Of a stretch of 28,300 bases of DNA, positions 1 to 27,600 are shown piece by piece (the stretch's first letter is position 1; each line of letters starts with the position of its first letter). A model generated the notes under the pieces. It did not search any database, had not been told where the DNA came from, and saw nothing but the letters and a program-made list of their open reading frames with translations. Origin of the DNA: a virus; IMG/VR virus record IMGVR_UViG_3300043786_001220, positions 1 to 28,300 of that record; one strand, 5' to 3'. The position numbers and the translations under genes are program-made.

Positions 1-200
1 CCGGTGATCTCGGGTCGCGACTGCAGGCCGGTGATCTCGGGTCGCGACTGCAGGCCGGTGATCTCGGGTCGCGACTGCAGGCCGGTGATCTCGGGTCGCG
101 ACTGCAGGCCGGTGATCTCGGGTCGCGGCTGCAGGCCGGTGATCTCGGGTCGCGACTGCAGGCCGGTGATCTCGGGTCGCGACTGCAGGCCGGTGATCTC
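1..200. repeat. 27-bp tandem repeat array (7 full copies plus 11 bp)
   Basis: Seven head-to-tail copies start at 1, 28, 55, 82, 109, 136 and 163, and an 11-base partial copy fills 190-200. Copies are identical except for one A-to-G change at 128 in copy five. Each unit carries the palindromes GTCGCGAC and CTGCAG. The array begins at the first base of the window, so it probably extends further left. There are no spacers, so this is a minisatellite and not a CRISPR array. The unit length is a multiple of three and five of the six frames are open through it, so an open frame here is no evidence of coding. Its place upstream of the terminase genes would fit a packaging, replication or recombination site, or a boundary with host DNA; this is inference. 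Confidence 0.95.
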
Positions 201-333
201 ATCGAGTTCGAACTATCGACGAAATCGTAGAGGCGGGAAGCGGCGCATTAACGATGTCACTCAACTACTCCAAAAATAAAAAAACAACTTCCCACTTCCA
301 TTTCTCCAACATTTCGTCTACACTTCTACTCAT
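201..333. other. Non-coding spacer after the repeat array
   Basis: No convincing gene lies here. It holds a perfect 10-bp palindrome, AGTTCGAACT at 205-214, directly after the array, and an A-rich tract at about 274-287. The stretch up to the first small gene is C/T-rich and shows no clear ribosome binding site. A promoter may be present but I could not pick convincing boxes. Confidence 0.5.
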
Positions 334-504
334 ATGAAACACGAACAATTCACCCGCAACGAACTCGACTGGCTTCTGAAGCGAGCGTTAGACCGCAGAG
401 CAGAGGTCACTTCGAATCCGACAATTCCGGCTGTCGACGATCCTCTGGTCGAGTTCCTTACTGGGATCATCAACAAACTTTACGCACTGATCGGCAACCA
501 ATGA
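334..504 (+). CDS. Small hypothetical protein (56 aa)
   Basis: I do not recognise this gene. The ATG at 334 opens a 56-residue frame whose TGA overlaps the ATG of the next gene (ATGA at 501-504), the coupling style used throughout the window. The N-terminal half is charged and probably helical (NELDWLLKRALDRRAE) and the C-terminal half is more hydrophobic (PLVEFLTGIINKLYALIG), so a small helical protein is likely. No Shine-Dalgarno sequence is obvious upstream. The case for coding rests on codon character and the start-stop overlap. Function is unknown. Confidence 0.5.
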   Translation: MKHEQFTRNELDWLLKRALDRRAEVTSNPTIPAVDDPLVEFLTGIINKLYALIGNQ

Positions 505-704
505 CCCAAACAAACCCCGGTTCCCCCGCCGCCATCGCGGCAGGTTGTCTCTGCCCGATCTCGATGAACAACCAGGGCAACGGCGTATCGACGAACACGC
601 CGAATCTGCGTCGGTTCATTCATGCGAACGCATGTCCGTTGCATGGCGTTTACATTCCGCAAAACACAACCATCACAATCGACAGTTCAGGAGTCCAGCG
701 ATGA
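501..704 (+). CDS. Small hypothetical protein (67 aa)
   Basis: Unknown function. The 67-residue product contains a CLCP motif near residue 16-19 and another ACP at about 45-47, then HGVYIP. This spacing suggests a small Cys-containing, possibly metal-binding, fold such as CxC-x(n)-C-x2-H, but no named family is recognised. Start and stop both overlap the neighbours by four bases (501-504 and 701-704), which supports translation as part of a coupled set. It is short and could instead be an accessory early protein. Confidence 0.5.
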   Translation: MTQTNPGSPAAIAAGCLCPISMNNQGNGVSTNTPNLRRFIHANACPLHGVYIPQNTTITIDSSGVQR

Positions 705-985
705 TCCGCGTATCAATCGTTATCATTCTGCTCACCATCGCCACAAGCCGAATCACAGATGCTGGCGACCCGAGCTTTGCTGACAGGTATTTCAAGGCGA
801 TGGAGTCGAGACCAGCGACTCCGCCGGCCCCACCGAAAATAAAAAAAGAACCTGTGGTCCGCAAAAAGACGACTGAGAAAACCGCAGCACCATCCGTCAC
901 ATTTGACGGGGTTTACCTGCGGAATTCAGCGGGCGATGTAATTGGGATGCGAACGCGGTGTAAGGCGTGTAGAATCGGGCGTTAG
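701..985 (+). CDS. Exported small hypothetical protein (94 aa)
   Basis: Function unknown. I start at the ATG at 701 because it overlaps the previous stop (ATGA) and places a signal peptide at the N-terminus: MIR followed by a hydrophobic stretch VSIVIILLTIATS, then a likely cleavage near residue 20-22. An in-frame upstream start at 545 would bury this signal inside the protein. The mature part has a Pro/Lys-rich linker (about residues 46-65) and a C-terminal domain ending with a CKAC motif. Export and the CxxC pair suggest a periplasmic or envelope protein. Confidence 0.55.
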   Translation: MIRVSIVIILLTIATSRITDAGDPSFADRYFKAMESRPATPPAPPKIKKEPVVRKKTTEKTAAPSVTFDGVYLRNSAGDVIGMRTRCKACRIGR

Positions 986-993
986 TTCCTTAA

Positions 994-1013
994 GTTTCAC
1001 AGCGTCGTGAAAC
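994..1013 (+). other. Short hairpin between genes
   Basis: GTTTCAC at 994-1000 and GTGAAAC at 1007-1013 form a perfect 7-bp stem with a 6-base loop (AGCGTC). No T-run follows, so it is not a standard rho-independent terminator. It may protect the 3' end of the upstream message or be an operator for a dimeric protein; both are guesses. Confidence 0.4.
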
Positions 1014-1041
1014 ACAACAACCATTAGCCGAAGGATCAGAA

Positions 1042-1320
1042 ATGTCGAAGCAGTTTCGTTTCAGGATTAACGTCGAGTGCGACGTTCAGAACGCGGATTC
1101 CGAGTCGATTGCGAGGACAGCAGCGTTTGCTCTGCTGACCCAGATGCAGTCCGAGAAAAAGCGGGGTCGTCCGTCCTCGGATGTGAAGGCGACGATTACG
1201 GGGGTGTCGATCAGTCCGACTGAAGACGCGAAGGTGCTGTACCGGCATTCGATGCCACTTCCGATGAAGCCTCGTTCGTTGGACGAGTCAGAGACGACCA
1301 TTGACGAAGTCACCGAGTAG
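1042..1320 (+). CDS. Hypothetical protein (92 aa)
   Basis: Unknown function. The start at 1042 has a good ribosome binding site (AAGGA about 8 bases upstream). The 92-residue product begins with a beta-type segment (QFRFRINVECDVQ), then a short helix and a second beta segment (VKATITGVSIS), and ends with an acidic tail. It may be a small single-domain alpha/beta protein. A rho-independent terminator lies directly downstream, so it is the last gene of the left-hand unit and is not obviously cotranscribed with the terminase genes. Confidence 0.6.
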   Translation: MSKQFRFRINVECDVQNADSESIARTAAFALLTQMQSEKKRGRPSSDVKATITGVSISPTEDAKVLYRHSMPLPMKPRSLDESETTIDEVTE

Positions 1321-1330
1321 TTCTCCCCGA

Positions 1331-1375
1331 AAGCAGTCAGCGATTCCCCCGAGTCGCTGGCTGCTTGTTTTGTTT
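1331..1375 (+). terminator. Rho-independent terminator
   Basis: GCAGTCAGCGA (1333-1343) pairs with TCGCTGGCTGC (1354-1364) to make an 11-bp stem with one G-U pair and a 10-base loop, followed by TTGTTTTGTTT at 1365-1375. It separates the left-hand small genes from the packaging genes. Confidence 0.8.
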
Positions 1376-1388
1376 GCGGACCATCACA

Positions 1389-1649
1389 ATGAAGTCCTCC
1401 CGAGCCTCCCACACTCACGTTCGCCACAAGATCGAGCAGATCACGAACGACACCGAGCAGATCAATCAGATTCTGGTGAATAATGCTCCGGATATCATCG
1501 ACCTGCTGACCGAGACTCTCTCCCTCCGTCAGGTTGCTCGTAAAGTGAAGAGATCGCCGACATATTTGAGTCAGGTGAAGAACCGGAAGCAGCGGATCTC
1601 GTGGGAGACGTATTGCCTGCTGGCGATGATGCTTGAAGAGAGCGAGTAA
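1389..1649 (+). CDS. Small HTH protein, candidate terminase small subunit
   Basis: The 86-residue protein has a basic N-terminus and a helix-turn-helix in the C-terminal half, with the pattern LRQVARKVKRSPTYLSQVKN at about residues 46-65. This resembles Cro/CI-type (HTH_3-like) domains. It ends immediately before terL, the usual place of the terminase small subunit, which binds the packaging site and loads the motor. I start at the ATG at 1389 because an earlier possible start at 1365 lies inside the terminator T-run. The size is small for a full TerS, which usually also carries an oligomerisation domain, so a transcription regulator is the alternative. Confidence 0.6.
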   Translation: MKSSRASHTHVRHKIEQITNDTEQINQILVNNAPDIIDLLTETLSLRQVARKVKRSPTYLSQVKNRKQRISWETYCLLAMMLEESE

Positions 1650-3065
1650 ATGGAAGTCAGTGAACCACAGTACAAAATGCTTAGTTCTTCTAGTGAATTC
1701 CTACTATTTGGTGGGGCCGCATCTGGCGGAAAATCTTGGGCTTTATGCCTCGATCCGCTGCGTCACGTTCAGGGAAAGCATGCGACTCCTGATGCAAGGT
1801 GCGCGCTGTTTCGCAAGACTCACCCGCAGTTGATGCAAGCCGGTGGATTGTTTGACACGACGACAAAGATCTATACGCCGCTAGGAGCTAAATTCAATCA
1901 CACGCGATCAGAGTGGACGTTCCCGTCAGGCGCGAAGATTGGCCTGAATACGCTGCAGCATGAGAAGGATATTGAGCAGTATCTCGGGGCTCAGTGGGAC
2001 TGGGTCGGAATTGACGAGTCGGCGGCGTTTTCCCTGCAAAATGTGATGTTTTTCTGGTCCAGATGCCGCTCGAAGTCGGGAATAAAACCAAATCTCAGGC
2101 TAACGGCGAATCCGGACAATAGCAGTTTTCTGTATCCGCTGATTCACTGGTGGCTTGATAGCGAGACTGGATACCCGAATTACGACAAGGCAGGAGTTAT
2201 CCGGCACTTCGTCACGCAGGATGACACGTTCATCTGGTCTGATGATCCGGTCTTCGACGACAAGGGAGTGAAGATTTCAACGTCGATGACATTCATTCCT
2301 GCGAAGATCACCGACAACTCTCACCTGATGAAAAGCGACCCGTCGTACTATCGCCGATTGATGTCACTGCCGACGCAGGAGAGGGAGAGATTCCTTGAGG
2401 GATCGTGGCTTGCGTCATCAAACACTGGAACTGAGTGGCCCAGAGAATGCTTCACGGACCTGTTCATTCCGATCGAAAGATTTCCGACTCCAAAGCATGC
2501 CAATGACATCGTCAGAATGTTTGCTGTTGACGCATCGAAGGGGAAGTCTGAGAAGAAGGGTGATTACAGTGCCTTGGTTTGTCTGGCACAAACGTCAGAA
2601 TTGGCTTACGTCGATGCTGACTTAAAAAGGCGACCACCAGGACAGATTGTCGAGGATCTATTTCTGTTTTGCGAGCAGGACCATCACAGGATTCGGTCGG
2701 GAGATTTGATTGGCGTTGAGTCGACTCAGTTTCAGAGCATCTTCAGAGACTTGATCGTCACATACGCAGAGTCTCACAAAGAGTATGCGTTGTCGAAGTA
2801 CATCGCTTCAGGAGGGCTGATAATCCCTATCGAAGATCACATGAACAAGCAGATGAGAATCAGAAGACTCGATCAGAGAATCAGGCAACGCGAGATGCGA
2901 TATCTTGAAAATCCCGGAACAACACTGCTGCTGAATCAATTGAAGCAGTTCGACGGCATCCCAGGCGTCGGAAAGCACGACGACGGGCCGGATGCATTGG
3001 CGATGTGTACGCAGTTGCCGCGTTATGAGCAGGAGTATTGGGAGAATTTGAGGAAGGAGAAGTGA
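1650..3065 (+). CDS. terL: Terminase large subunit (TerL)
   Basis: This 471-residue protein is the ATP-driven DNA packaging motor and headful or site-specific nuclease. The N-terminal ATPase shows a Walker A motif GGAASGGKS at residues 21-29 and a Walker B DWVGIDE at 117-123, followed by a TANPD motif in the 150s typical of the coupling segment. The C-terminal RNase H-like nuclease is seen as FAVDASKGKSEKKGDYSAL near residue 290, LIGVES near 350 and KHDDGPDALA near 443, supplying the acidic metal ligands. The length is normal for the family. The ATG follows the previous stop directly (TAA then ATG). The protein is well conserved in all motifs and should be active. Confidence 0.95.
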   Translation: MEVSEPQYKMLSSSSEFLLFGGAASGGKSWALCLDPLRHVQGKHATPDARCALFRKTHPQLMQAGGLFDTTTKIYTPLGAKFNHTRSEWTFPSGAKIGLNTLQHEKDIEQYLGAQWDWVGIDESAAFSLQNVMFFWSRCRSKSGIKPNLRLTANPDNSSFLYPLIHWWLDSETGYPNYDKAGVIRHFVTQDDTFIWSDDPVFDDKGVKISTSMTFIPAKITDNSHLMKSDPSYYRRLMSLPTQERERFLEGSWLASSNTGTEWPRECFTDLFIPIERFPTPKHANDIVRMFAVDASKGKSEKKGDYSALVCLAQTSELAYVDADLKRRPPGQIVEDLFLFCEQDHHRIRSGDLIGVESTQFQSIFRDLIVTYAESHKEYALSKYIASGGLIIPIEDHMNKQMRIRRLDQRIRQREMRYLENPGTTLLLNQLKQFDGIPGVGKHDDGPDALAMCTQLPRYEQEYWENLRKEK

Positions 3066-17647: not shown

Positions 17648-17811
17648 GATATGTCATAGTCGTTGCGATTGCCTCTGTCATTGTGAGCAGAGTGCTATCT
17701 GAGTTGATCTCTGGTATTCCTGTACGGCAAAGAGAGGCGATCGCTGAAATAGAAGATCGCATGCAGGACACAAGGTACAGGGATCTGTGCTTAATGAAGA
17801 GCATTCAATGA
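17644..17811 (+). CDS. Small single-pass membrane protein (55 aa)
   Basis: The ATG at 17644 and the TGA at 17809-17811 overlap both neighbours by four bases, which strongly supports expression. The product starts MRYVIVVAIASVIVSRVLSE, one hydrophobic segment likely to be a membrane anchor or signal, followed by a charged helix (RQREAIAEIEDRMQDTRYRD). It resembles small phage spanin- or holin-like proteins in layout only. Sitting at the border of tail and glycosyltransferase genes, its role is unknown. Confidence 0.55.
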   Translation: MRYVIVVAIASVIVSRVLSELISGIPVRQREAIAEIEDRMQDTRYRDLCLMKSIQ

Positions 17812-18542
17812 CCCAGTTTGTTTACCTTAACGTCATCGGTCCCGACAACGGCGAAGAACTTCGGCTGTCGATGGCATCCGTCCGGAAGAACTTCACTGGG
17901 GATTCCTCTTTCACGATCATCGGCGAGAAGCCGAACTGGTACACAGGGCATCACATTCCAGTGCCTCGCCTCACGAAGATGCGAGAACTGCCAGGTCGCA
18001 TGGCGTTTCGCGACACTCAGGCAAAGATTATGCTGGCAGCGTCTCATCCGGAGATCGACGAAGAGTTCGTCTGGATGATGGACGACCAGTTCTTCCTGAA
18101 GCCAACGTCAATCGAGGATCTCAGAGTCCTTCGGTACGACCCGTGGTATCGGACAAATTCGAAACGAGAGTGGCATCGGCTGATCAAACTGACGTTCGGT
18201 GCGCTGGCTGCGAATGGTCGATCTAACTTTCAGGCCGGCACTCATCTTCCGCATGTGTTTGAGAAGACGAAACTTCAGCAAATGTTCGTCGAATACGGGT
18301 TCCCGAATAATTTGTACCTGTTCGAAATACTGTACGAAAATCATTGGCAATGTGGTCGCACGCCGATACCTTACGGAGGGATTTGGAAGGGTGTTCAGTA
18401 TCCGCAGTTTCTCAAGAGATTACTGCGACCGCTAATGCTTCGCCAACTGAATGAGATTGATGCCAATGTGCTGAATTACCAGAGCAACGTGTGGAGGCCG
18501 ACCATGCGAGATTGGCTGAGAGGTCGGTTTACGGAGGAATGA
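17808..18542 (+). CDS. Glycosyltransferase, GT-A type (244 aa)
   Basis: First sugar gene of the cassette. The start at 17808 overlaps the previous stop (ATGA). The product shows a Rossmann-like N-terminus (FVYLNVIGPDNGEELRLSMAS), and at residues 87-97 FVWMMDDQFFL, a DD metal/nucleotide-sugar motif like that of GT-A transferases and stealth-type phosphotransferases. It has no signal peptide or membrane segment, so it acts in the cytoplasm on nucleotide-sugar or similar donors. The acceptor is unknown; position suggests virion protein or a surface glycan. The next gene starts 1 base after its stop. Confidence 0.7.
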   Translation: MTQFVYLNVIGPDNGEELRLSMASVRKNFTGDSSFTIIGEKPNWYTGHHIPVPRLTKMRELPGRMAFRDTQAKIMLAASHPEIDEEFVWMMDDQFFLKPTSIEDLRVLRYDPWYRTNSKREWHRLIKLTFGALAANGRSNFQAGTHLPHVFEKTKLQQMFVEYGFPNNLYLFEILYENHWQCGRTPIPYGGIWKGVQYPQFLKRLLRPLMLRQLNEIDANVLNYQSNVWRPTMRDWLRGRFTEE

Positions 18543-18543
18543 G

Positions 18544-20034
18544 ATGCTCAATGTTTTCACCTACTGGGAGCATGCTCCGAAAGCCCGCAAGTGGCCTTAC
18601 ATTGAATTCTGCCTCGACACGATCCGATCGAAGTGTCTGGACGGCTGCTTGTTCCACCACATCACTTCAGCGAATATCGACAAGTATATCCCGGATGGGA
18701 TTATGCATCCGTCATGGAAGAACATCAAAGAACTCGGCGTGAAGTCCGATTGCGTCCGCGCTGCCGTGTTGATGCAGTATGGCGGGCTCTACATTGACGC
18801 AGATACGCTGATGTTGCGATCGCCAAAAGAACTCGACACTGGTCATGAATGCGGATTCATGACGTGGTCGACTCCCCCGCGACGAGTGATCGCTGGTTAC
18901 ATTTACTGTTGCCCAGACAGCGAAGTCGCGAAGAAGTGGGTTGCGAACATCAATGCAATGCTCGAGCAGGGAAAGCACGGGTGGACTGATCTCGGAGAGA
19001 AATGCCTGACTCCTGCCGTTGATTCGAGCGAGAACACGATCAACTGGCCTTTGGCGACATTCCTCCCAATAGAGATCGACACAGAAGTCCAGAGATTCTT
19101 CAGTGTTTCTACGTGGAAGGTTCCGGATCAATCGATAGCAATTGGATTGAACCATTCGCTGATGACGAGGAAGTATGCTGGAGAAATGAGGTCTGCAGGT
19201 CACGAGAATGCGTCATTTAAGAAACGATCGCAGGACTCAAAGCTCACGATTCACAAGATCTTCAGCAAAAGCAGATCATCTCAGAATCAAATGAAGATTG
19301 GCGTTTGCGTTCCCACATTTCGCAGGCCGAAACTGCTTGGGCATTTGATCTCCTGCTTCGAAAGCCAGAATTACGAAGACAGGCTCCTGATCGCATACGA
19401 CGACCATGGAGAGATCGCTGAGTCGTCTGGCGATCGATGGAAGATCGTTAGTCGCAACGAGCCCCACACATCGCTGGGAGAGAAGCGAAACGCAATCGCT
19501 GAGATGTTCGGTGATTCTGTCGACGCATTTGTGTTCTGGGACGACGACGACATCTTCCTTCCAGATGCCTTGTCTGCGGTTGAAAATGCTCTAAGCCGAT
19601 CGGACTGGTGCAGGGCAAGTCAGGTTCTCGTCCGTGGATCTCGTGATCTGACGCGATGTAAGACCTACTGGCGCGAAGATAAATCCGATAAAGCGTTTCA
19701 ATGTACCTGGGGAGTGACTCGTTCGGCGTTCTGGAGTGTAGGCGGGTTCGATTTCGTTTCTCTGGGAGAAGACCTGCGACTTGCAAAGAAGCTACGAGAC
19801 GCGAAGATCAGCGAATCTGATCCAGTCGCGATGGGGTGGAATCCGTATGCGGTTTCATCGCCTTACGGAAATGAACACTTCTCTTGGACTGTGAAGGATT
19901 ACGAAAAGTGGAAGGATGTTGCAAAGTCTGACGGCGAATTCAGAGTTGCGAATCATCCATTCAGCTTGAAGATTGGGGACCATGTCAATGATCGATCTTG
20001 GAAGGGAGATTGGTATGACGACGAAGTACGATGA
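18544..20034 (+). CDS. Two-domain glycosyltransferase (GT32-like plus GT2-like)
   Basis: A 496-residue fusion. Domain one (about 1-240) has the GT32 signature MQYGGLYIDADTLML with the DxD motif at 85-87, as in capsular polysaccharide and alpha-1,6-mannosyl-type transferases. Domain two (about 250-496) begins MKIGVCVPTFRRPKLL like a GT2 transferase, has FWDDDD at 331-336 and an FDFVSLGEDLRL segment in the acceptor region. An internal ATG (19291) stands at the domain border but has no ribosome binding site, so the fusion is probably real. AGGAA precedes the start. It could add two sugars in sequence to one acceptor. Confidence 0.78.
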   Translation: MLNVFTYWEHAPKARKWPYIEFCLDTIRSKCLDGCLFHHITSANIDKYIPDGIMHPSWKNIKELGVKSDCVRAAVLMQYGGLYIDADTLMLRSPKELDTGHECGFMTWSTPPRRVIAGYIYCCPDSEVAKKWVANINAMLEQGKHGWTDLGEKCLTPAVDSSENTINWPLATFLPIEIDTEVQRFFSVSTWKVPDQSIAIGLNHSLMTRKYAGEMRSAGHENASFKKRSQDSKLTIHKIFSKSRSSQNQMKIGVCVPTFRRPKLLGHLISCFESQNYEDRLLIAYDDHGEIAESSGDRWKIVSRNEPHTSLGEKRNAIAEMFGDSVDAFVFWDDDDIFLPDALSAVENALSRSDWCRASQVLVRGSRDLTRCKTYWREDKSDKAFQCTWGVTRSAFWSVGGFDFVSLGEDLRLAKKLRDAKISESDPVAMGWNPYAVSSPYGNEHFSWTVKDYEKWKDVAKSDGEFRVANHPFSLKIGDHVNDRSWKGDWYDDEVR

Positions 20035-20722
20035 AGAGAAGCGGTTCTGGAAGGATGAGATCTCATTCTACGTCCGGTGGTTCCATGGAAGAATCAAAGA
20101 ACTGTACGGAGTCCCGTGCCCGAAGCAGCATGAAAAGATTCAGCGATTCTCTTCTGAAGAACTGAATGCGATTGAGACGTGGATTAACGCAGACAAGTGG
20201 CGTTACTGCAAAAGGCTGCACGTCGAGCCGACGTACTTCTCTGGCAAGAAGGTTTTAGAGGTTGGTTCTGGTCCGCTGGGCCTGAGCCGGTTCTTTGCGG
20301 GAGCGGAAGTGCATTATCTCGATCCACTTCATGCATGGTACTGGCAGTGCGGATACCCGAAGGTCGGATATTCAATCGAAGCAAGAATCGAAGACTGTAT
20401 GCATCATCGATATGACGCTGTGATCTCAGTGAACGCAATCGATCACGTCGATCAGTTTGAAGACGCAATCAATGCCTGTGAAATGATGTGCGACATGGAC
20501 GGCGAAATCCGCATGGACATCCACTACCACGCACCAACAGTCACAGAACCACATGTCCTGAATGACGAGATTGTCGCTGCGGCGTTCAAGAAGTTCGACA
20601 TGAAAAAGATCGCGGAGAATCCGTCGCGAGTTTTCTATCCTCGTGGCACGCATCCAGACTCTGATAGATTCGCTGTTTGGAGCAATCGCGATTACGTTTA
20701 CGATGCAGTGAGGTCGCTGTGA
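20015..20722 (+). CDS. SAM-dependent methyltransferase (235 aa)
   Basis: I start at the ATG at 20015, 6 bases after AAGGGAGA, which overlaps the preceding gene by 20 bases; an earlier in-frame start at 19973 would enlarge the overlap. Motif I of class I methyltransferases is seen as KVLEVGSGPLGLSRF at residues 79-93, followed by an acidic residue in EVHYLDP for ribose binding, and the post-motif YDAVISVNAIDHVDQFEDA near 135-153. The N-terminal ~75 residues are helical and may bind acceptor. By context it could O-methylate a sugar added by the neighbouring transferases. Confidence 0.8.
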   Translation: MTTKYDEEKRFWKDEISFYVRWFHGRIKELYGVPCPKQHEKIQRFSSEELNAIETWINADKWRYCKRLHVEPTYFSGKKVLEVGSGPLGLSRFFAGAEVHYLDPLHAWYWQCGYPKVGYSIEARIEDCMHHRYDAVISVNAIDHVDQFEDAINACEMMCDMDGEIRMDIHYHAPTVTEPHVLNDEIVAAAFKKFDMKKIAENPSRVFYPRGTHPDSDRFAVWSNRDYVYDAVRSL

Positions 20723-21639
20723 ACAGAGAACAAGCACTCGCAAAGATGGTTGCCCCGGTCCAGAAGCGGAAGACTGCCTGGCTGAAAGGCATCATTCAGA
20801 TCCACGTTACGCGAGCCTGCGATCTCGCCTGCTCCAACTGCACGCAGGGATCTCAGTTTGGCGGCAAGGCATCGTTCATCACCGAAGAAAACTTCGAGGC
20901 GGCAGTCGTCAGCCTAAAGGATTACTTTGGTGTTGTCGGGATCTTTGGAGGCAACGCAGCACTGGCTCCGAACTTCGAGGCACTTTGCCTGATTCTTGAA
21001 AAACATATTCCGAAGAATCGTCGTGGTCTGTGGTGCAACAACCCGCGAGGACACGGCAAGCTGATGCGGCGAGTGTTTAACCCAAAGGTGTCAAACCTGA
21101 ACGTGCATCTGGTCAAGGATGCCTACGACGAATTCAAACGCGACTGGCCAGAGTCAGAACCGTTCGGACTTCATCACGACTCTCGTCACTCGCCGGTCTA
21201 CGGATCGCTGGAGAAACTGGTTCCGGACGAGTCGCAGCGATGGGATCTCATTGGCAACTGTGCGATCAACCAGAACTGGTCGGCGATGATCTGTCAGTTC
21301 CGTGGCGAGCTTCGCGGATACTTCTGCGAAATTGCTGGCGGGCAGGCGATGCTGAATCAAGAGAATCCGGAATACCCTGACACGGGCGTGAAGATCGAAG
21401 CTGGATGGTGGAAGAAGGCGATGCCGGAATACGGTGCTCAAGTCGACTTCCACTGTCATCGGTGTTTGGTTCCGCTAAACGGTCATGGAGCATTGGCTCA
21501 GGCCGACAAGAAGACACAGGTCACGGAAGAGTATTCGCACCTGAAGTTGAAGTCTGGTGGCACGTTTCAGATCGTCGATAACATCAGCGATATTCTGCCT
21601 GAAGAAAAACGCATCGTGACGGAGTATCTCGGAACATGA
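20719..21639 (+). CDS. Radical SAM enzyme (306 aa)
   Basis: The likely start is GTG at 20719, overlapping the previous TGA (GTGA). The signature CDLACSNC (Cys34, Cys38, Cys41) binds the 4Fe-4S cluster that cleaves SAM. GIFGGNAAL at about 75-83 may match the glycine-rich SAM-binding motif. Further Cys in the C-terminal half (GNCAIN, MICQF, YFCEIAGG, FHCHRC) suggest an auxiliary, SPASM-like cluster, as found in enzymes that modify peptides or sugars. Its position among sugar transferases points to a sugar or glycopeptide substrate. The exact reaction cannot be told. Confidence 0.82.
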   Translation: MNREQALAKMVAPVQKRKTAWLKGIIQIHVTRACDLACSNCTQGSQFGGKASFITEENFEAAVVSLKDYFGVVGIFGGNAALAPNFEALCLILEKHIPKNRRGLWCNNPRGHGKLMRRVFNPKVSNLNVHLVKDAYDEFKRDWPESEPFGLHHDSRHSPVYGSLEKLVPDESQRWDLIGNCAINQNWSAMICQFRGELRGYFCEIAGGQAMLNQENPEYPDTGVKIEAGWWKKAMPEYGAQVDFHCHRCLVPLNGHGALAQADKKTQVTEEYSHLKLKSGGTFQIVDNISDILPEEKRIVTEYLGT

Positions 21640-22172
21640 TCCTGAATCATCGTGAATCGTTGGCCGACATTGCAAATGCAAAAGGTCTCACGACTGCCGT
21701 TGAGATCGGAACTCACCAAGCCGTTTTCGCCGCTGAGTTTCTTAAGCGATTTCGCGGCACACTTACGATGATCGATCCATGGGATGGGTACGACGGAGTC
21801 CGCGATGTCTTCTACCCGATGGTTCAGGAGACAACGAATCGAGACGATGATTTCGAGATTGCAAGAATGGCGATGATGGCATTCCCGGATCGGCACAAGT
21901 TTCTGAGGATGCGGAGCGAAGAAGCGGTGATGCTGTTTGATGACCTGAGCGTAGGCTTTGTTTATATAGACGCATTGCACGACTATGAGTCCGTCATTCA
22001 GGACATGAGACGCTGGGAAACGAAAATCGTTGAGGGTGGAATTATCGCTGGACACGATTTTGCAATTGAAAACCATGGAGTGATCCATGCGGTTCTGGAA
22101 TTCTGCAGAAACCGCTCACTGAAGTTTCACGTCACTCAAGAGGACGTTCCGTCCTGGTGGATTGAGTTATGA
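21636..22172 (+). CDS. Class I methyltransferase, Methyltransf_24-like (178 aa)
   Basis: The 178-residue protein shows AVEIGTHQAVFAAEFLKRF (residues 21-39, motif I), TMIDPWDGY, VGFVYIDALHDYESVIQDM and GGIIAGHDF, the characteristic order of small Methyltransf_24-type enzymes often found in cell-surface sugar clusters. The IDALHDYE segment carries likely metal- or substrate-binding acidic residues. It is coupled to both neighbours by ATGA overlaps. Together with the methyltransferase at 20015 it suggests that more than one methyl group or sugar position is modified. Confidence 0.82.
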   Translation: MILNHRESLADIANAKGLTTAVEIGTHQAVFAAEFLKRFRGTLTMIDPWDGYDGVRDVFYPMVQETTNRDDDFEIARMAMMAFPDRHKFLRMRSEEAVMLFDDLSVGFVYIDALHDYESVIQDMRRWETKIVEGGIIAGHDFAIENHGVIHAVLEFCRNRSLKFHVTQEDVPSWWIEL

Positions 22173-22912
22173 CAGCAATCAAGCCCCGAGGCATCACCGT
22201 CTGCGTCGACTACGCCGACATCCTCTCGCTGACGCTCCCGTACAACCGGGAGTTCTTCAGCGAGTTCATGGTGGTCACGACGGTCAAGGATCATCAGACA
22301 ATCCACCTCGCGCAGGAGAACGACTGTCATGTCCATCTTAGCGATGCTTTTTACGCTCGAGGCGCTGCGTTCAATAAGTTTGCAGCGATGGAAGAAGGGC
22401 TTGATGTTTTCGGTCGGCACGACTGGATGTGCATCATTGATGCTGACATCGTCATCCCGAAGAACAAGCTCGCTTGGGTGCCGAAGATCGGAAAGATCTA
22501 CACTCCGCATCGCCGGATCCTGCACCAGATTCCGACGGAAATCCCGGAACATCGCCTATGGCGACAGTCGAAGAGAGCGATGAACAACGAAGAGTTCGCA
22601 GGCTACTTCCAGTTGTTCCATGCGAGCGAACCGTTCCTGCAGAAGACTCCATGGCATGAAACGGACTGGACGTGGGCTGGCGGCGCTGACTCGTTCTTTC
22701 ATCAAAAGTGGTCGGAGTCAAATAAGGTCCGACCACCGTTCGAGGTTCTGCATCTCGGGCCTCCGTTTATCAACTGGTGCGGACGAGTCACTCCGTTTGC
22801 AGACGGAACGACACCTGAGAAGGCGATGGTTCGTAACGAACATCGGATGATGCTGCTGAAGAATCGCCGTGAGAACAAGCAGGACCGATACAAAGCGGAG
22901 AAGTTGAAGTGA
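22169..22912 (+). CDS. Glycosyltransferase, GT-A type (247 aa)
   Basis: This 247-residue protein has a GT-A core: ITVCVDYADILSLTLPYNREFF at the N-terminus, WMCIIDADIVIPKNK with the DxD motif at residues 91-93, and WTWAGGADSFFHQKW later, where a transferase usually holds its acceptor/catalytic acid loop. No membrane segment is seen. The C-terminus is highly basic (RRENKQDRYKAEKLK). Start and stop overlap the adjacent genes. Donor and acceptor are unknown. Confidence 0.72.
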   Translation: MTAIKPRGITVCVDYADILSLTLPYNREFFSEFMVVTTVKDHQTIHLAQENDCHVHLSDAFYARGAAFNKFAAMEEGLDVFGRHDWMCIIDADIVIPKNKLAWVPKIGKIYTPHRRILHQIPTEIPEHRLWRQSKRAMNNEEFAGYFQLFHASEPFLQKTPWHETDWTWAGGADSFFHQKWSESNKVRPPFEVLHLGPPFINWCGRVTPFADGTTPEKAMVRNEHRMMLLKNRRENKQDRYKAEKLK

Positions 22913-23718
22913 GAATCTCCGTCGGGATACTGTCCGCGCCAAGGCCGGAACCCACTCTAAATAAGTGTTCGACTGCCATTGCCGAGTCGGGCTTCAGCTT
23001 GATCCATCACGCGACGGAATCAGAGAGCCGGCATTTTCTGTCGCCGTGTGAGTTTGAGCGATCACCGACGGGATCTCTGGGCAACTTCCAGAACTGGCTG
23101 CAGACTGCGAGAGATCTGCTCACAATGGACCACGACGCAATCCTGATCGCCGAGGATGATGCGTTGTTCTGCCGGGACGTGCATGCACTTCTGCAGCGGG
23201 ATCTCTGGCCTGCGGCGGACTGCGGGTGCGTGTCGTTGTACTGTCCTGCAATGTCGCATTACAAGCAGAGTTCCTCGGGACTGCACAAAACGCGGATTGC
23301 CCGTGCAGAGCCGATGACGAACAGAACGAATCTCGTCGGCGCGCTCGCTCTTGCGTTTCCTGCGTCGGTGCTGAGAGAACTGGTTTACCACGACTCGATT
23401 AGCCAGTGGGGAGGATCTCACATGCAGGCGAGTAATCCGAAGACAAAGCCATACCAGCGGAAGGCAGTCGACACATGGATTGGCAGAACTCTGATTTCAA
23501 TGGGTCGATCGATCTGGCATTATTCCCCGAGCCTCGTGCAGCATTACGTTCCGAATCCGAAAATTGCAAATTCGTCGCTTGGGCATGGAATGGCGATTGG
23601 AAACCGCCAGTCGCGATCGTGGGCTGGAAATTCAAAACGGAGTGTGCTGGAGATGATTCCGGCCAACAAGGAAAAGTTTGATGTCGCAAGTTCCGGTCTA
23701 CCTGAACATCAGGTCTGA
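22909..23718 (+). CDS. Glycosyltransferase-like protein, GT25-like (269 aa)
   Basis: It starts with GTG at 22909 in a GTGA overlap. The N-terminal part (MRISVGILSAPRPEP) and DAILIAEDDALFCRDV at residues 76-91, with EDD at 82-84, are typical of GT25 and related GT-A transferases. Later elements include NLVGALALAFPASVLREL and YQRKAVDTWIGRTLISMG, where VDTWIG fits the acidic acceptor-loop motif. The basic tail from about 240 is less conserved-looking and its last 38 bases overlap the next gene. The enzyme should be cytoplasmic. Confidence 0.7.
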   Translation: MRISVGILSAPRPEPTLNKCSTAIAESGFSLIHHATESESRHFLSPCEFERSPTGSLGNFQNWLQTARDLLTMDHDAILIAEDDALFCRDVHALLQRDLWPAADCGCVSLYCPAMSHYKQSSSGLHKTRIARAEPMTNRTNLVGALALAFPASVLRELVYHDSISQWGGSHMQASNPKTKPYQRKAVDTWIGRTLISMGRSIWHYSPSLVQHYVPNPKIANSSLGHGMAIGNRQSRSWAGNSKRSVLEMIPANKEKFDVASSGLPEHQV

Positions 23719-24397
23719 ATATGCAGAAGCGGATAGTTCGAGGTATCGGTTTTCGCTGACTGAGAACATTCTGATCCCAAGCCTGAAGAATCAGGTTGCC
23801 CGAGGCGCGATCATCTTCCTGCAGCAGTCTCCGATGGATCCGTACTTCAAGCGGCGGGAGAAAGCATTTCGATCCATCACGGATAAAGTGATCCCGATGC
23901 ACGAGAAGGAAAGCATGGAGTTGCCGGCCAGAGTCGAGGCGACGATTGGCGACGACGACTTTCTTGGGCCGGAGTTTGTCCAAAAGATGCGGATGGGCTT
24001 TGTGCCAGAGCGCGGAAACGTCCAGATGTTTATGCCGCACGGGTACATTTTCTTCGAGGGAGCCCTGCATCCTTGGCGGAACAAGGACGATTTCATTGAG
24101 ATCACGCAGTACGGCAACCCAAGTTCGCCGGTGGTTCGGCACGAGGGATTCAGGATTGCGGACACTCCGCAGTGGATTTACTGCAGGCATCAGATGAATT
24201 TTAACCCGCTTTCGGCTTCAGAAGTTAATGCTCCTGAGATAAAACTGGCTGCGTGGAAGGGTTGGGCACAGAAAATAGTGGCGCGCTATTGCCAAACTCA
24301 AGTGCTGACGGCGACTGCGAATGGGTGTACTTTGCATCCTACAAAAAGCAAGTCGATGATGTACGCTAAGGGGTCTGCTCGTAGTCGAAGGAAATGA
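23681..24397 (+). CDS. Putative rhamnosyltransferase-like glycosyltransferase (238 aa)
   Basis: I use the ATG at 23681, 6 bases after AAGGAA; a TTG one codon earlier is also open. The product has VYLNIRSEYAEADSSRYRFSL at the start, RVEATIGDDDFLGPEFVQK at 84-102 with a DDD metal motif at 91-93, and a strand-rich C-terminal half containing FMPHGYIFFEGALHPW. This layout resembles the putative rhamnosyl transferase family. Its last ~35 residues are basic and rather low in structure. It closes the cassette of sugar enzymes. The next gene, a membrane protein, overlaps it by four bases. Confidence 0.65.
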   Translation: MSQVPVYLNIRSEYAEADSSRYRFSLTENILIPSLKNQVARGAIIFLQQSPMDPYFKRREKAFRSITDKVIPMHEKESMELPARVEATIGDDDFLGPEFVQKMRMGFVPERGNVQMFMPHGYIFFEGALHPWRNKDDFIEITQYGNPSSPVVRHEGFRIADTPQWIYCRHQMNFNPLSASEVNAPEIKLAAWKGWAQKIVARYCQTQVLTATANGCTLHPTKSKSMMYAKGSARSRRK

Positions 24398-25342: not shown

Positions 25343-26202
25343 AAGAGTTGATTTTATTCCTGAGTGTCTGCCTTGGTGCGATATTGGCGGCGATTCAGGA
25401 CGACCCGACGGTTCAGAAACCTGCTCCAGACAGAATTGATCTGGAGCCACAGATTATCTTCCCGACGATCCCGGTAATCGACGAGGGGGATGTTCCGGAG
25501 GAAGATCTCCCTGTTCCTCCGGTGCGTCCGAAACGTGGACCGGAGTTTGTGTCGAAGCTGAGCGAAGAGACTTGGCTCGTCGTTGAATCGCCGGGGCCGC
25601 TGATGATCTTTGACTTCCCGGAAGGACTGGTCGAGATCGATTCAGACGACGGTGCCAGACCGATGAAGGTCAAAGGAAAATTCGCTGACGGCACAGGGAA
25701 AGTCGAGACTCGCACATTCACGAGCAAGCACTTGTATTTCGTGAATGCTGTGAAGTCTGGTGAGATGGAGATGTTGATCATCCCTGAGGGAGCGATCAAC
25801 AAGAAGCAATCTCAGCGACATAAGATTGTGGTGATGGGCGAGGCGCCGAAACCTCCACCGGATCCGGAACCTGAACCTGAACCAATGCCAGTTCCGACGG
25901 GGAATGTGGTCATTGCGATTGTCGAGGACGCACAGAACCGCAAGCCTGATACGGCGATTCTGCTGAATGCGATGGCGGGATGGAATGCTTTGAAAGACGC
26001 TGGGAATGACTGGCGTCTTTATGACGTTGCGACCAGCGAGCCAAAGGGAAAGCAGGCAGTCGAGGATGCGAAGTCTGCTGAACTTCCGGCGATGATCATT
26101 CGCGACAAGGAGACCGACAAGATCCTGCGAGTGATTCCGTTGCCGAAAGATTTCGACTCGTTGAAAAGAATTCTTTCCGAACTGGGGGTGAAAGGTGTCT
26201 GA
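25339..26202 (+). CDS. Exported two-domain protein with thioredoxin-like C-terminus (287 aa)
   Basis: The ATG at 25339 (ATGA overlap) gives a signal peptide, MKELILFLSVCLGAILAA; an upstream in-frame start at 25315 would not. Then come a Pro/acidic linker (about 27-65), a beta-rich domain (about 70-160), a linker of Pro-Glu-Pro repeats (PPPDPEPEPEPMPVP near 173-187) and a C-terminal domain whose pattern VVIAIVEDAQ, LPAMIIRDKETDKILRVIPLP and FDSLKRIL resembles a thioredoxin fold without the CxxC. It would act outside the cytoplasm, perhaps as a binding or scaffold protein. The next gene starts 8 bases before its end. Confidence 0.55.
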   Translation: MKELILFLSVCLGAILAAIQDDPTVQKPAPDRIDLEPQIIFPTIPVIDEGDVPEEDLPVPPVRPKRGPEFVSKLSEETWLVVESPGPLMIFDFPEGLVEIDSDDGARPMKVKGKFADGTGKVETRTFTSKHLYFVNAVKSGEMEMLIIPEGAINKKQSQRHKIVVMGEAPKPPPDPEPEPEPMPVPTGNVVIAIVEDAQNRKPDTAILLNAMAGWNALKDAGNDWRLYDVATSEPKGKQAVEDAKSAELPAMIIRDKETDKILRVIPLPKDFDSLKRILSELGVKGV

Positions 26203-27001
26203 GGAAATCGAACAGATCATTGATGAGACTGGCGAGACTCGCCGACTCGGATCTCTGGCTCCTCAGGAGGGATTCGTATCGGCGTTCAACACGTTTGAGC
26301 AGGAGCATCCGGTCTGGGATGACGCTGACATCAAACGGGTGATTCTGGATGCGAACAGAACTCCGCGCCGGACAGTGTTTACCAAGGAGTGGATTCAGAG
26401 CCAGGGCAACTTTGGCTCCTGCAACGGATACGCTGGCGCTGGCGCCTTGTCAAAAGCCCGATACCTGCGAGGCATTCAGGACAAGCTGAAACTTTCCGGA
26501 GCGTTCATCTACTCACTCATCAATGGTGGGCAGGATAACGGTTCTGCTTTGGAGAGCGGGCTGAAGGTTATTGGCACTCACGGAGCTCCGCCAGAGACTT
26601 TGGTTCCGTGGAACATGATTTACCCCAAGCAGCAGCCATCAAACGCCAAGGCAGAAGCGCTGAAGCATCGTGGGCTGAAATGCTACGCTGTGCAGACAAA
26701 GCAGGGATTCCGGACAGCTTTGGCTGCGGGGTTTCCTGTGATCGTTGCTGTTCACGCCGGACGCAATTTCCAGAGAGTGAATGCCCAGGGGATTGCCTCG
26801 GCGGATTCCGGCGGCGGCAACCATGCGATCCACTGCGACGACATCAGGATCGTTGGCGGGCAGGAAGTTTACGACTCCTGCAATTCGTGGGGCGTGACTT
26901 ACGGCGATCAGGGTCGGGCTTTCCTGACGTGGGATTCGTTTGCTCAGACGTTTGGCCGGCACAAATTTTACGCTGTCTCCAGCACTCTCGAAGCGGAGTA
27001 G
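26195..27001 (+). CDS. Papain-like (C1-type) cysteine peptidase
   Basis: The 268-residue protein starts with GTG at 26195 after a G-rich ribosome binding site. It has the full papain set: QGNFGSCNGYA with oxyanion Gln70 and nucleophile Cys76, GGGNHAIHCDDI with His210, and SCNSWG with Asn230 followed by the conserved SWG. The first ~60 residues may be a short propeptide-like or specificity region. There is no signal peptide, so release through a holin or injection with the virion would be needed for an envelope target. Peptidases of this clan are rare in phage lysis regions, where muramidases or amidases are normal. Confidence 0.85.
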   Translation: MSEEIEQIIDETGETRRLGSLAPQEGFVSAFNTFEQEHPVWDDADIKRVILDANRTPRRTVFTKEWIQSQGNFGSCNGYAGAGALSKARYLRGIQDKLKLSGAFIYSLINGGQDNGSALESGLKVIGTHGAPPETLVPWNMIYPKQQPSNAKAEALKHRGLKCYAVQTKQGFRTALAAGFPVIVAVHAGRNFQRVNAQGIASADSGGGNHAIHCDDIRIVGGQEVYDSCNSWGVTYGDQGRAFLTWDSFAQTFGRHKFYAVSSTLEAE

Positions 27002-27003
27002 TC

Positions 27004-27600
27004 ATGCAAAACGTCGTCTTTCTGCTTCTGTGCTGTATTTCCGGGCCTCCGGAGATCTTTTCGGCTACTGGCGTTTACGCTGAAAAGCCGAAGGCGGCTC
27101 CTGCTCCATACCTGCTCATGTTCACCGCAGAATGGTGCGGACCATGTCAGGCATGGAAAAAGTCAGGGAAGAAGAAGCAGATCGAGGAAGCCGGCGTTTC
27201 GGTGACGTTCGTCGACATCGACAAGAATCCAGAGTACCGGATCGCCGGAGGACCGCTTCCAGCAGTGGATCGGTTCCCGACGTTCTGGCTGATGGTTCCA
27301 CCGAATCAGAAGCCTGTGAAGGTGTGGTTTGGTACAGTTTCACACTTGGATGTGCGGGCGAATTTGCGAATTCGCAGGTCAAAGGAAGATCTGGACAAAT
27401 GGGTTCGAAGCAATTACACCGAGCAAACCACGTTAAAGATGGGCATGGAAAAGAATGCGGACGTTTACTTGCATCTCACGGATGGGACAGAAAACACGCA
27501 CGTTTTCACAAAAGAGCAGGTTTTAGGGCTGGATTTGTGGGTTGCTTTGGCACTTCATGATGCTTTGCATTCCGCAAAGATCAGTCCGTTTGTAGACTGA
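27004..27600 (+). CDS. Exported thioredoxin-like protein with WCGPC site (198 aa)
   Basis: The ATG at 27004 has GGAG upstream and begins a hydrophobic signal (MQNVVFLLLCCISG), which may be cleaved near residue 26 or act as a lipoprotein signal at Cys10/11. The active site AEWCGPCQAW has Cys45 and Cys48, and RFPTFWL supplies the cis-Pro at 92. The core is a thioredoxin fold; the C-terminal ~70 residues (after about 130) are an extra domain. It may reduce or shuffle disulfides in the periplasm or in the Cys-rich virion proteins of this phage, though the latter assemble in the cytoplasm. Confidence 0.8.
   Translation: MQNVVFLLLCCISGPPEIFSATGVYAEKPKAAPAPYLLMFTAEWCGPCQAWKKSGKKKQIEEAGVSVTFVDIDKNPEYRIAGGPLPAVDRFPTFWLMVPPNQKPVKVWFGTVSHLDVRANLRIRRSKEDLDKWVRSNYTEQTTLKMGMEKNADVYLHLTDGTENTHVFTKEQVLGLDLWVALALHDALHSAKISPFVD

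Follow-up and report, generated by a model that had tools for sequence, protein, structure and literature searches.

Minisatellites with a variable number of tandem repeats (VNTR loci) consist of GC-rich units that are arranged head to tail. Their copy number changes, variant units are interspersed among the others, and the arrays change faster than the DNA on either side. In the a sequence of herpesviruses, reiterated repeats lie between cleavage signals. In lambdoid phages, short boundary sequences are found at the junctions between modules.

The locus described here is a 27-bp tandem array at the left end of a virus record of 28,300 bp (IMGVR_UViG_3300043786_001220), which was analysed as a whole and is referred to as the window. 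In related phages the same position, here called the slot, mostly carries arrays built from other units. With about even confidence, we regard the array as one allele of a hypervariable minisatellite that is anchored at a slot between two modules and whose function would not lie in its sequence.

The array and its flanks

The program TRF reports a single array in the window (period 27, 98% match, score 393), while the top score in 60 dinucleotide shuffles of the window did not exceed 57 (mean 39.7). Six of the seven whole units are identical in the unit map, and the variant copy carries an A>G substitution at position 128. The near-perfect minisatellite with a single substitution, as described by the sequence-only reading, was thus recovered, and its location beside the packaging genes was also correct (Table 1). 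As the window is the complete record and its left end falls within the array, the left part of the array is missing and 7.4 copies is a minimum. The unit contains both GTCGCGAC and CTGCAG, as had been claimed for each copy, but the A>G copy has lost GTCGCGAC. With head-to-tail units within the range of about 8 to 100 bp and at least two copies, the array belongs to the minisatellite/VNTR class. In the window and in the unit maps the units abut directly, without the unique spacers of a CRISPR array.

Table 1. Features of the slot and the neighbouring genes in the window
Feature	Position	Strand	Basis or remark
27-bp tandem array	1..200	.	Truncated by the start of the contig, hence 7.4 copies or more; TRF and unit map
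Conserved right-flank element of the slot	201..330	+	Match to model R1, 98.4 bits
Palindrome AGTTCGAACT	205..214	.	Full form in 3 of 33 aligned flanks (window, L012, L134)
Element core TCGAACTATCGACGAAATCG	208..227	+	Occurs a single time in each of 20 of the 22 related contigs, up to 2 mismatches being allowed
A-rich tract of the element	272..287	+	Retained in most relatives (flank alignment)
Conserved TACACT	319..324	+	Flank alignment; candidate -10 box
56-aa ORF directly after the element	334..504	+	Read from the sequence
94-aa ORF directly before the terminase	1365..1649	+	Weak helix-turn-helix matches (E 0.002 and 0.003)
Large terminase subunit	1650..3065	+	Anchor for finding relatives

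To the right, the array is followed by a conserved element. The two exceptions to its core among the 22 contigs are G003, which starts to the right of the core, and G013, in which the core has diverged. The palindrome AGTTCGAACT, noted earlier as a separate feature behind the array, is indeed present, but its full form is rare: most of the 33 aligned flanks show AATTCGAACT at this position or diverge more, so the palindrome itself is not conserved. In the window, about 70 bp separate the array from the A-rich tract on its right, which, together with the conserved TACACT, may form a promoter; sigma-70 promoter scans found none at TACACT and leave this reading unsupported. No consensus RNA structure was found for the element, and Rfam gave no match up to an E value of 0.5 in window positions 1-3000.

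The gene at the position of the 56-aa ORF varies among the relatives. In the window, small ORFs lie between this ORF and the 94-aa ORF, which, judging from its weak domain matches, is a possible small terminase. The distance from the element to the large terminase gene on its right is about 1.4 kb. Behind the structural genes, a run of sugar-modification-like genes is found (17787-24394). Glycosyltransferase-like genes lie at 18544-20034 and 22169-22912, a radical-SAM-like gene (below the cut-off) at 20677-21639 and a methyltransferase domain at 21636-22172. Near the right contig end, a papain-family peptidase gene is followed by a thioredoxin-like gene (26195-27600).

To the left of the slot, the gene in L011 encodes a GP88-family protein (PF17338, E 5.5e-26). 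At 11 of 17 boundaries (L141, L143, L032, L029, L033, L134, L135, L187, L152, L190 and L181), the slot is preceded at a distance of 9-42 bp by a T-run and a stem of 10-13 pairs with no more than one mismatch. This terminator pattern is missing at the other six: L085 and L160 have no stem, L165 has no T-run, L157 has only a weak stem, and in L173 and L171 the stems are 97 and 86 bp off. The hairpin at the slot of L011 was detected by the stem search and is not listed by a terminator library scan. At several loci the first unit extends the left boundary GCGCC with CCGGATG or CCGGT, and this continuity suggests that units may be born locally.

Occupancy and turnover of the slot in related phages

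In IMG/VR, the exact 27-bp unit was found in only two other contigs, L011 and L012, in both cases at the same place. L011 (37.7 kb) has an internal array of 10.7 copies, and L012 (4.5 kb) begins within the array. This distribution supports the earlier proposal of a recent expansion or homogenisation that is linked to the phage. A scan with the terminase of the window returned 15 loci, eight of which (L014-L018 and L021-L023) carry an array at this place, directly to the left of the conserved sequence, with other units, namely of 43, 8, 26, 27 (two other sequences) and 17 bp. Scanning for the core TCGAWCTNKCGACGAAATCG gave 19 stretches; one of them, L037, shows a different context and no adjacent array.

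The best match in genome_contigs (the GTDB genome set) is L085, a 4.5-kb contig of a metagenome-assembled genome (MAG) titled Planctomycetaceae bacterium. Its terminase is 56% identical, and the same slot holds 4.4 copies of a 34-bp unit. Planctomycete hosts are suggested by this match, although the presence of a phage contig in a bin does not prove them. The relatives form a family of phages of about 56-60 kb that probably infect Planctomycetota. Among the named phages, no DNA match to window positions 1-1640 was found and the terminase relatives stay below 60% identity in all 1554 records; plasmids gave no match to positions 1-240. The core of the element also marks a little-known family of phages, probably with planctomycete hosts.

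For a count of slot occupancy, 33 right flanks (28 array-adjacent, 5 not) were aligned and converted into the sequence-only model R1. The search set comprised 81 loci: the window, L085 and 79 loci of the terminase scan (best 80 of 198). The model gave 49 matches, of which 47 were strong. L026 and the second match of L128 (weak) were left out, as were L147, L156 and L168 with less than 60 bp to the left, which results in 44 loci; near-duplicates such as L125/L126, L032/L144, L181/L182, L033/L189, L129/L130, L135/L187 and L170/L171 were kept. Among these best 80 of 198 relatives, the array ends at most 21 bp from the element in 33 of the 44 loci, a count that is biased towards arrays as 28 of the 33 model sequences come from array-bearing loci. 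In L157, a (CTGG)18 array lies 99 bp from the element. The remaining 10 of the 44 loci, from the same best 80 of 198, have no adjacent array, including L145, which was scored this way although its contig begins with a 17-bp array, some 590 bp left of the element. The array is therefore dispensable. In L038 and G005, small genes have been inserted on the left, and the array directly follows the last of them, still beside the element. In G011 and G012 (L160, L165), the element follows the gp88-like gene without an array. Read in the orientation of the slot, the G011 contig (L059/L061, 60.1 kb) starts within about 32 copies of a 15-bp unit, and its other end, judged without the last 102 bases, shows the same 15-bp repeat.

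About 22 unit types occur at the slot, with periods of 8-65 bp and about 1.6 to 27.6 copies. Over 21 of them (the 65-bp unit of L154 was left out) the GC fraction is 0.685, versus about 0.52 in the window. GATCGG occurs in 7 of the 21 unit types and ACCTGC in 6, against 1.5 and 0.4 expected from shuffles. No word is common to all 21; the best 6-mer reaches 7 and the best 4-mer 14. Since shared words exceed the shuffles, it would be too strong to call the units unrelated, and a loose sequence preference among them is possible. CTGCAG is present in 4 of the 21, and neither CTGCAG nor GTCGCGAC is a group feature of the arrays. Among perfect palindromes in the 21 units, those of 8 bp (8 versus 3.2 expected, a mild excess) and 10 bp (4 versus 0.8) are enriched, in contrast to the shorter ones of 4 and 6 bp. 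The idea that hairpins are a general rule was rejected: 6 of 12 arrays fold at z < -2 relative to shuffles and 6 do not. A protein-coding repeat was likewise rejected, as slot units of 8, 16, 17, 26, 28, 31, 32, 34, 37, 41, 43 and 65 bp are not multiples of three. When three unit patterns were searched in IMG/VR, scans from which the window's own record is possibly absent, they were found in 2, 3 and 3 contigs, all at the slot of the related set.

The turnover of the arrays is independent of both flanks. From the element onwards, L033 and L038 share 96.6% identity over 6.15 kb and carry units of 17 versus 8 bp; their left sides differ. In a pairwise comparison of 17 of the 47 loci, L141 is 97% identical to L132 over the first 300 bp on the right and 84% identical to L029 over 700 bp on the left, with different units in both cases. 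Conversely, the window and L141 have a unit in common, while a fraction of only 0.23 of the bases is identical between 0.3 and 3 kb to the right. The window and L014/L015 have identical terminases and units of 27 versus 43 bp. The window, L011 and L012 share their unit, and L012 starts with another gene after the array.

Copy number also differs between relatives with the same unit, as is the case for VNTR loci. A unit with 15.6 copies in L032/L144 is present in 1.6 copies in L045/L135/L187 (L135 and L187 belong to the 10 loci without an adjacent array), and another has 13.5 copies in L033 and 9.6 in L134, where both arrays lie inside their contigs. Unit maps show interspersed variants in L143 and L032 and repeated blocks in L029. 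No consistent polarity of variation towards the element was found in 12 arrays.

Further arrays are found in a larger intergenic region about 1.9-3.4 kb to the left of the core, beyond the window. Units of 19, 19, 35 and 26 bp, different in sequence and followed by an AT-rich flank, occur in G001, G010, G013 and G015/G019. The 17-bp intergenic units of G001, G010, G018 and G020 resemble each other, so hypervariability does not apply to all arrays of these phages. The large intergenic region also contains AT-rich repeats with the 14-bp palindrome TTGTATTAATACAA in G001, G005, G018 and G020 (L011 2960-3060, L069 14817-14854, L072 1778-1815, L051 2888-2901), a possible origin or operator. Dense repeats of 12-15 bp, all multiples of three, lie about 16-18 kb to the right of the slot (L049 16059-16915, L065 16490-17152, L067 18117-18769); judged from the untranslated DNA, they probably encode a low-complexity serine-rich structural protein.

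A proposed variable junction between modules and alternative explanations

As a hypervariable minisatellite at a module junction, the slot would be a non-coding stretch that leads from a gp88-type gene, usually with an intrinsic-terminator-like hairpin, to the conserved element, which may carry a promoter and after which the genes on the way to the packaging operon would begin. New units would arise on the spot, in part out of the left boundary GCGCCGG(ATG), would expand by slippage or unequal exchange and could be swapped between co-infecting phages. Any use of the array would then be independent of its sequence, as a recombinogenic spacer between the two modules. In compact phage genomes, a non-coding slot that is usually filled, with a repeat that differs in many lineages, is unexpected. 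It offers a natural experiment on the birth and replacement of minisatellites and is a likely exchange point between modules.

A purely neutral minisatellite, in which slippage-prone GC-rich DNA simply persists in a rare non-coding gap and the slot is nothing special, is rather unlikely. It would accommodate the 10 of 44 relatives that are array-free, the further arrays in another large intergenic region and the lack of a motif common to all units. However, 33 of the 44 loci are filled, and with different units, which would require arrays to be born there often or to be retained strongly even though the genome is compact. In L038 and G005, moreover, the place beside the element has been kept despite the small genes inserted on the left.

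A more specific proposal, which we put forward as a speculation with a modest chance of being correct, is that the core CGACGAAATC and the left terminator hairpin act together as a cis seed. Arrays would arise there repeatedly from scratch, for example through recurrent breaks or fork stalls and template switching. The slot would then be a phage counterpart of break-driven minisatellites and an exchange point of co-infecting phages.

Less probable is a packaging site, in which the terminase would cut the element (not the array) and end repair or recombination would build the adjoining array. The short distance to the terminase gene, the single core per contig in 20 of 22 contigs and the variable repeats with cleavage signals of the herpesvirus a sequence fit this explanation. 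So do the contig ends: of the 33 arrays, 19 start with the first base of their contig, and one starts at base 14. Contig breaks at the arrays are, however, to be expected because short reads cannot cross the repeat, and 13 of the 33 arrays are internal. In G005 (56,615 bp), both ends lie in the same 8-bp array with an exact overlap of 126 bp. The gp88 side is present at the end of this contig, and the map is therefore closed across the array. The element, finally, resembles the upstream region of an operon. In practice, contigs of these phages often stop at the slot, which hides complete genomes.

It is also improbable, slightly more so, that the array is an iteron-type replication origin or a partition site, where the units are the binding sites of a protein that differs between phages. 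Direct tandem repeats in a non-coding junction beside a conserved element, with some words common to several units, would agree with it. Against it, near-identical phages differ in the length (8-65 bp) and sequence of their units, the units are GC-rich (0.69) instead of AT-rich, no word occurs in all unit types, and which gene lies beside the array does not depend on the unit (window, L011, L012). An iteron origin is expected to keep its unit in relatives with the same initiator, which does not seem to be the case here. A better candidate for the origin is found elsewhere, in the AT-rich repeats with the palindrome TTGTATTAATACAA. GC skew is low around the slot and shows no clear switch. The protein-binding array or replication origin offered by the sequence-only reading is thus poorly supported, given that relatives carry other units at the same slot. 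The same holds for its integration border: no tyrosine integrase (PF00589) was found in the 22 contigs, many of which are fragments, by a search confined to this type of integrase.

Among the same 22 contigs, again many of them fragments, no reverse transcriptase (RVT_1, PF00078) was found, and the slot does not show this mark of a DGR- or retron-like system. In 8 of the 22 contigs (G001, G002, G005, G008, G009, G010, G018, G020), HNH_3 genes lie no more than about 3 kb from the core; as a driver of the arrays they were rejected, being absent from the window contig and several other array carriers.

A host repeat or assembly artefact is very improbable: the window contig does start within the array, and two loci (L107 1501-1552, L113 1378-1590) of one genome of the presumed host order do hold small GC-rich minisatellites, but the sequence of these is unlike the slot units, an exact search of genome_contigs for the 27-bp unit found nothing, and the slot is seen again in one MAG contig and in numerous separate contigs from metagenomes. 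When eight unit types were searched for as a chain, none of 7 genomes (MAGs) matched, and among 170 genomes from the presumed host order 6 matched only marginally (E 2e-4 to 9e-4) and without such arrays; these searches rated a small number of candidates in each genome and included no genome known to be positive as a control. The scattering through host genomes that would have contradicted the phage link was accordingly not encountered.

Comparison with known systems

A minisatellite as such is a known kind of locus; the conserved slot with a unit that changes between lineages appears to be the new aspect. At the level of abstracts, the literature gave no description of a conserved phage slot with a lineage-changing repeat unit, which may still have been published.

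The slot has direct tandem repeats in a non-coding region in common with iteron origins. It differs from them in the lack of a conserved unit, the wide range of unit lengths, the high GC content and an adjacent gene that is not tied to the unit. With the herpesvirus a sequence it shares a variable array of direct repeats beside a short conserved element, near packaging functions; the slot belongs to another virus group, and the likeness is a resemblance only. In the manner of the lambdoid boundary sequences, the identity between phages shifts abruptly at a short conserved sequence (L033/L038), whereas at the slot a tandem array fills the junction. The closest match is the hypervariable minisatellite or VNTR locus, with its GC-rich head-to-tail units, changing copy number, interspersed variants and turnover that is faster than that of the flanks. 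Unlike in VNTR loci, however, the unit itself is replaced between close relatives, and this takes place at one conserved slot in the phage genome.
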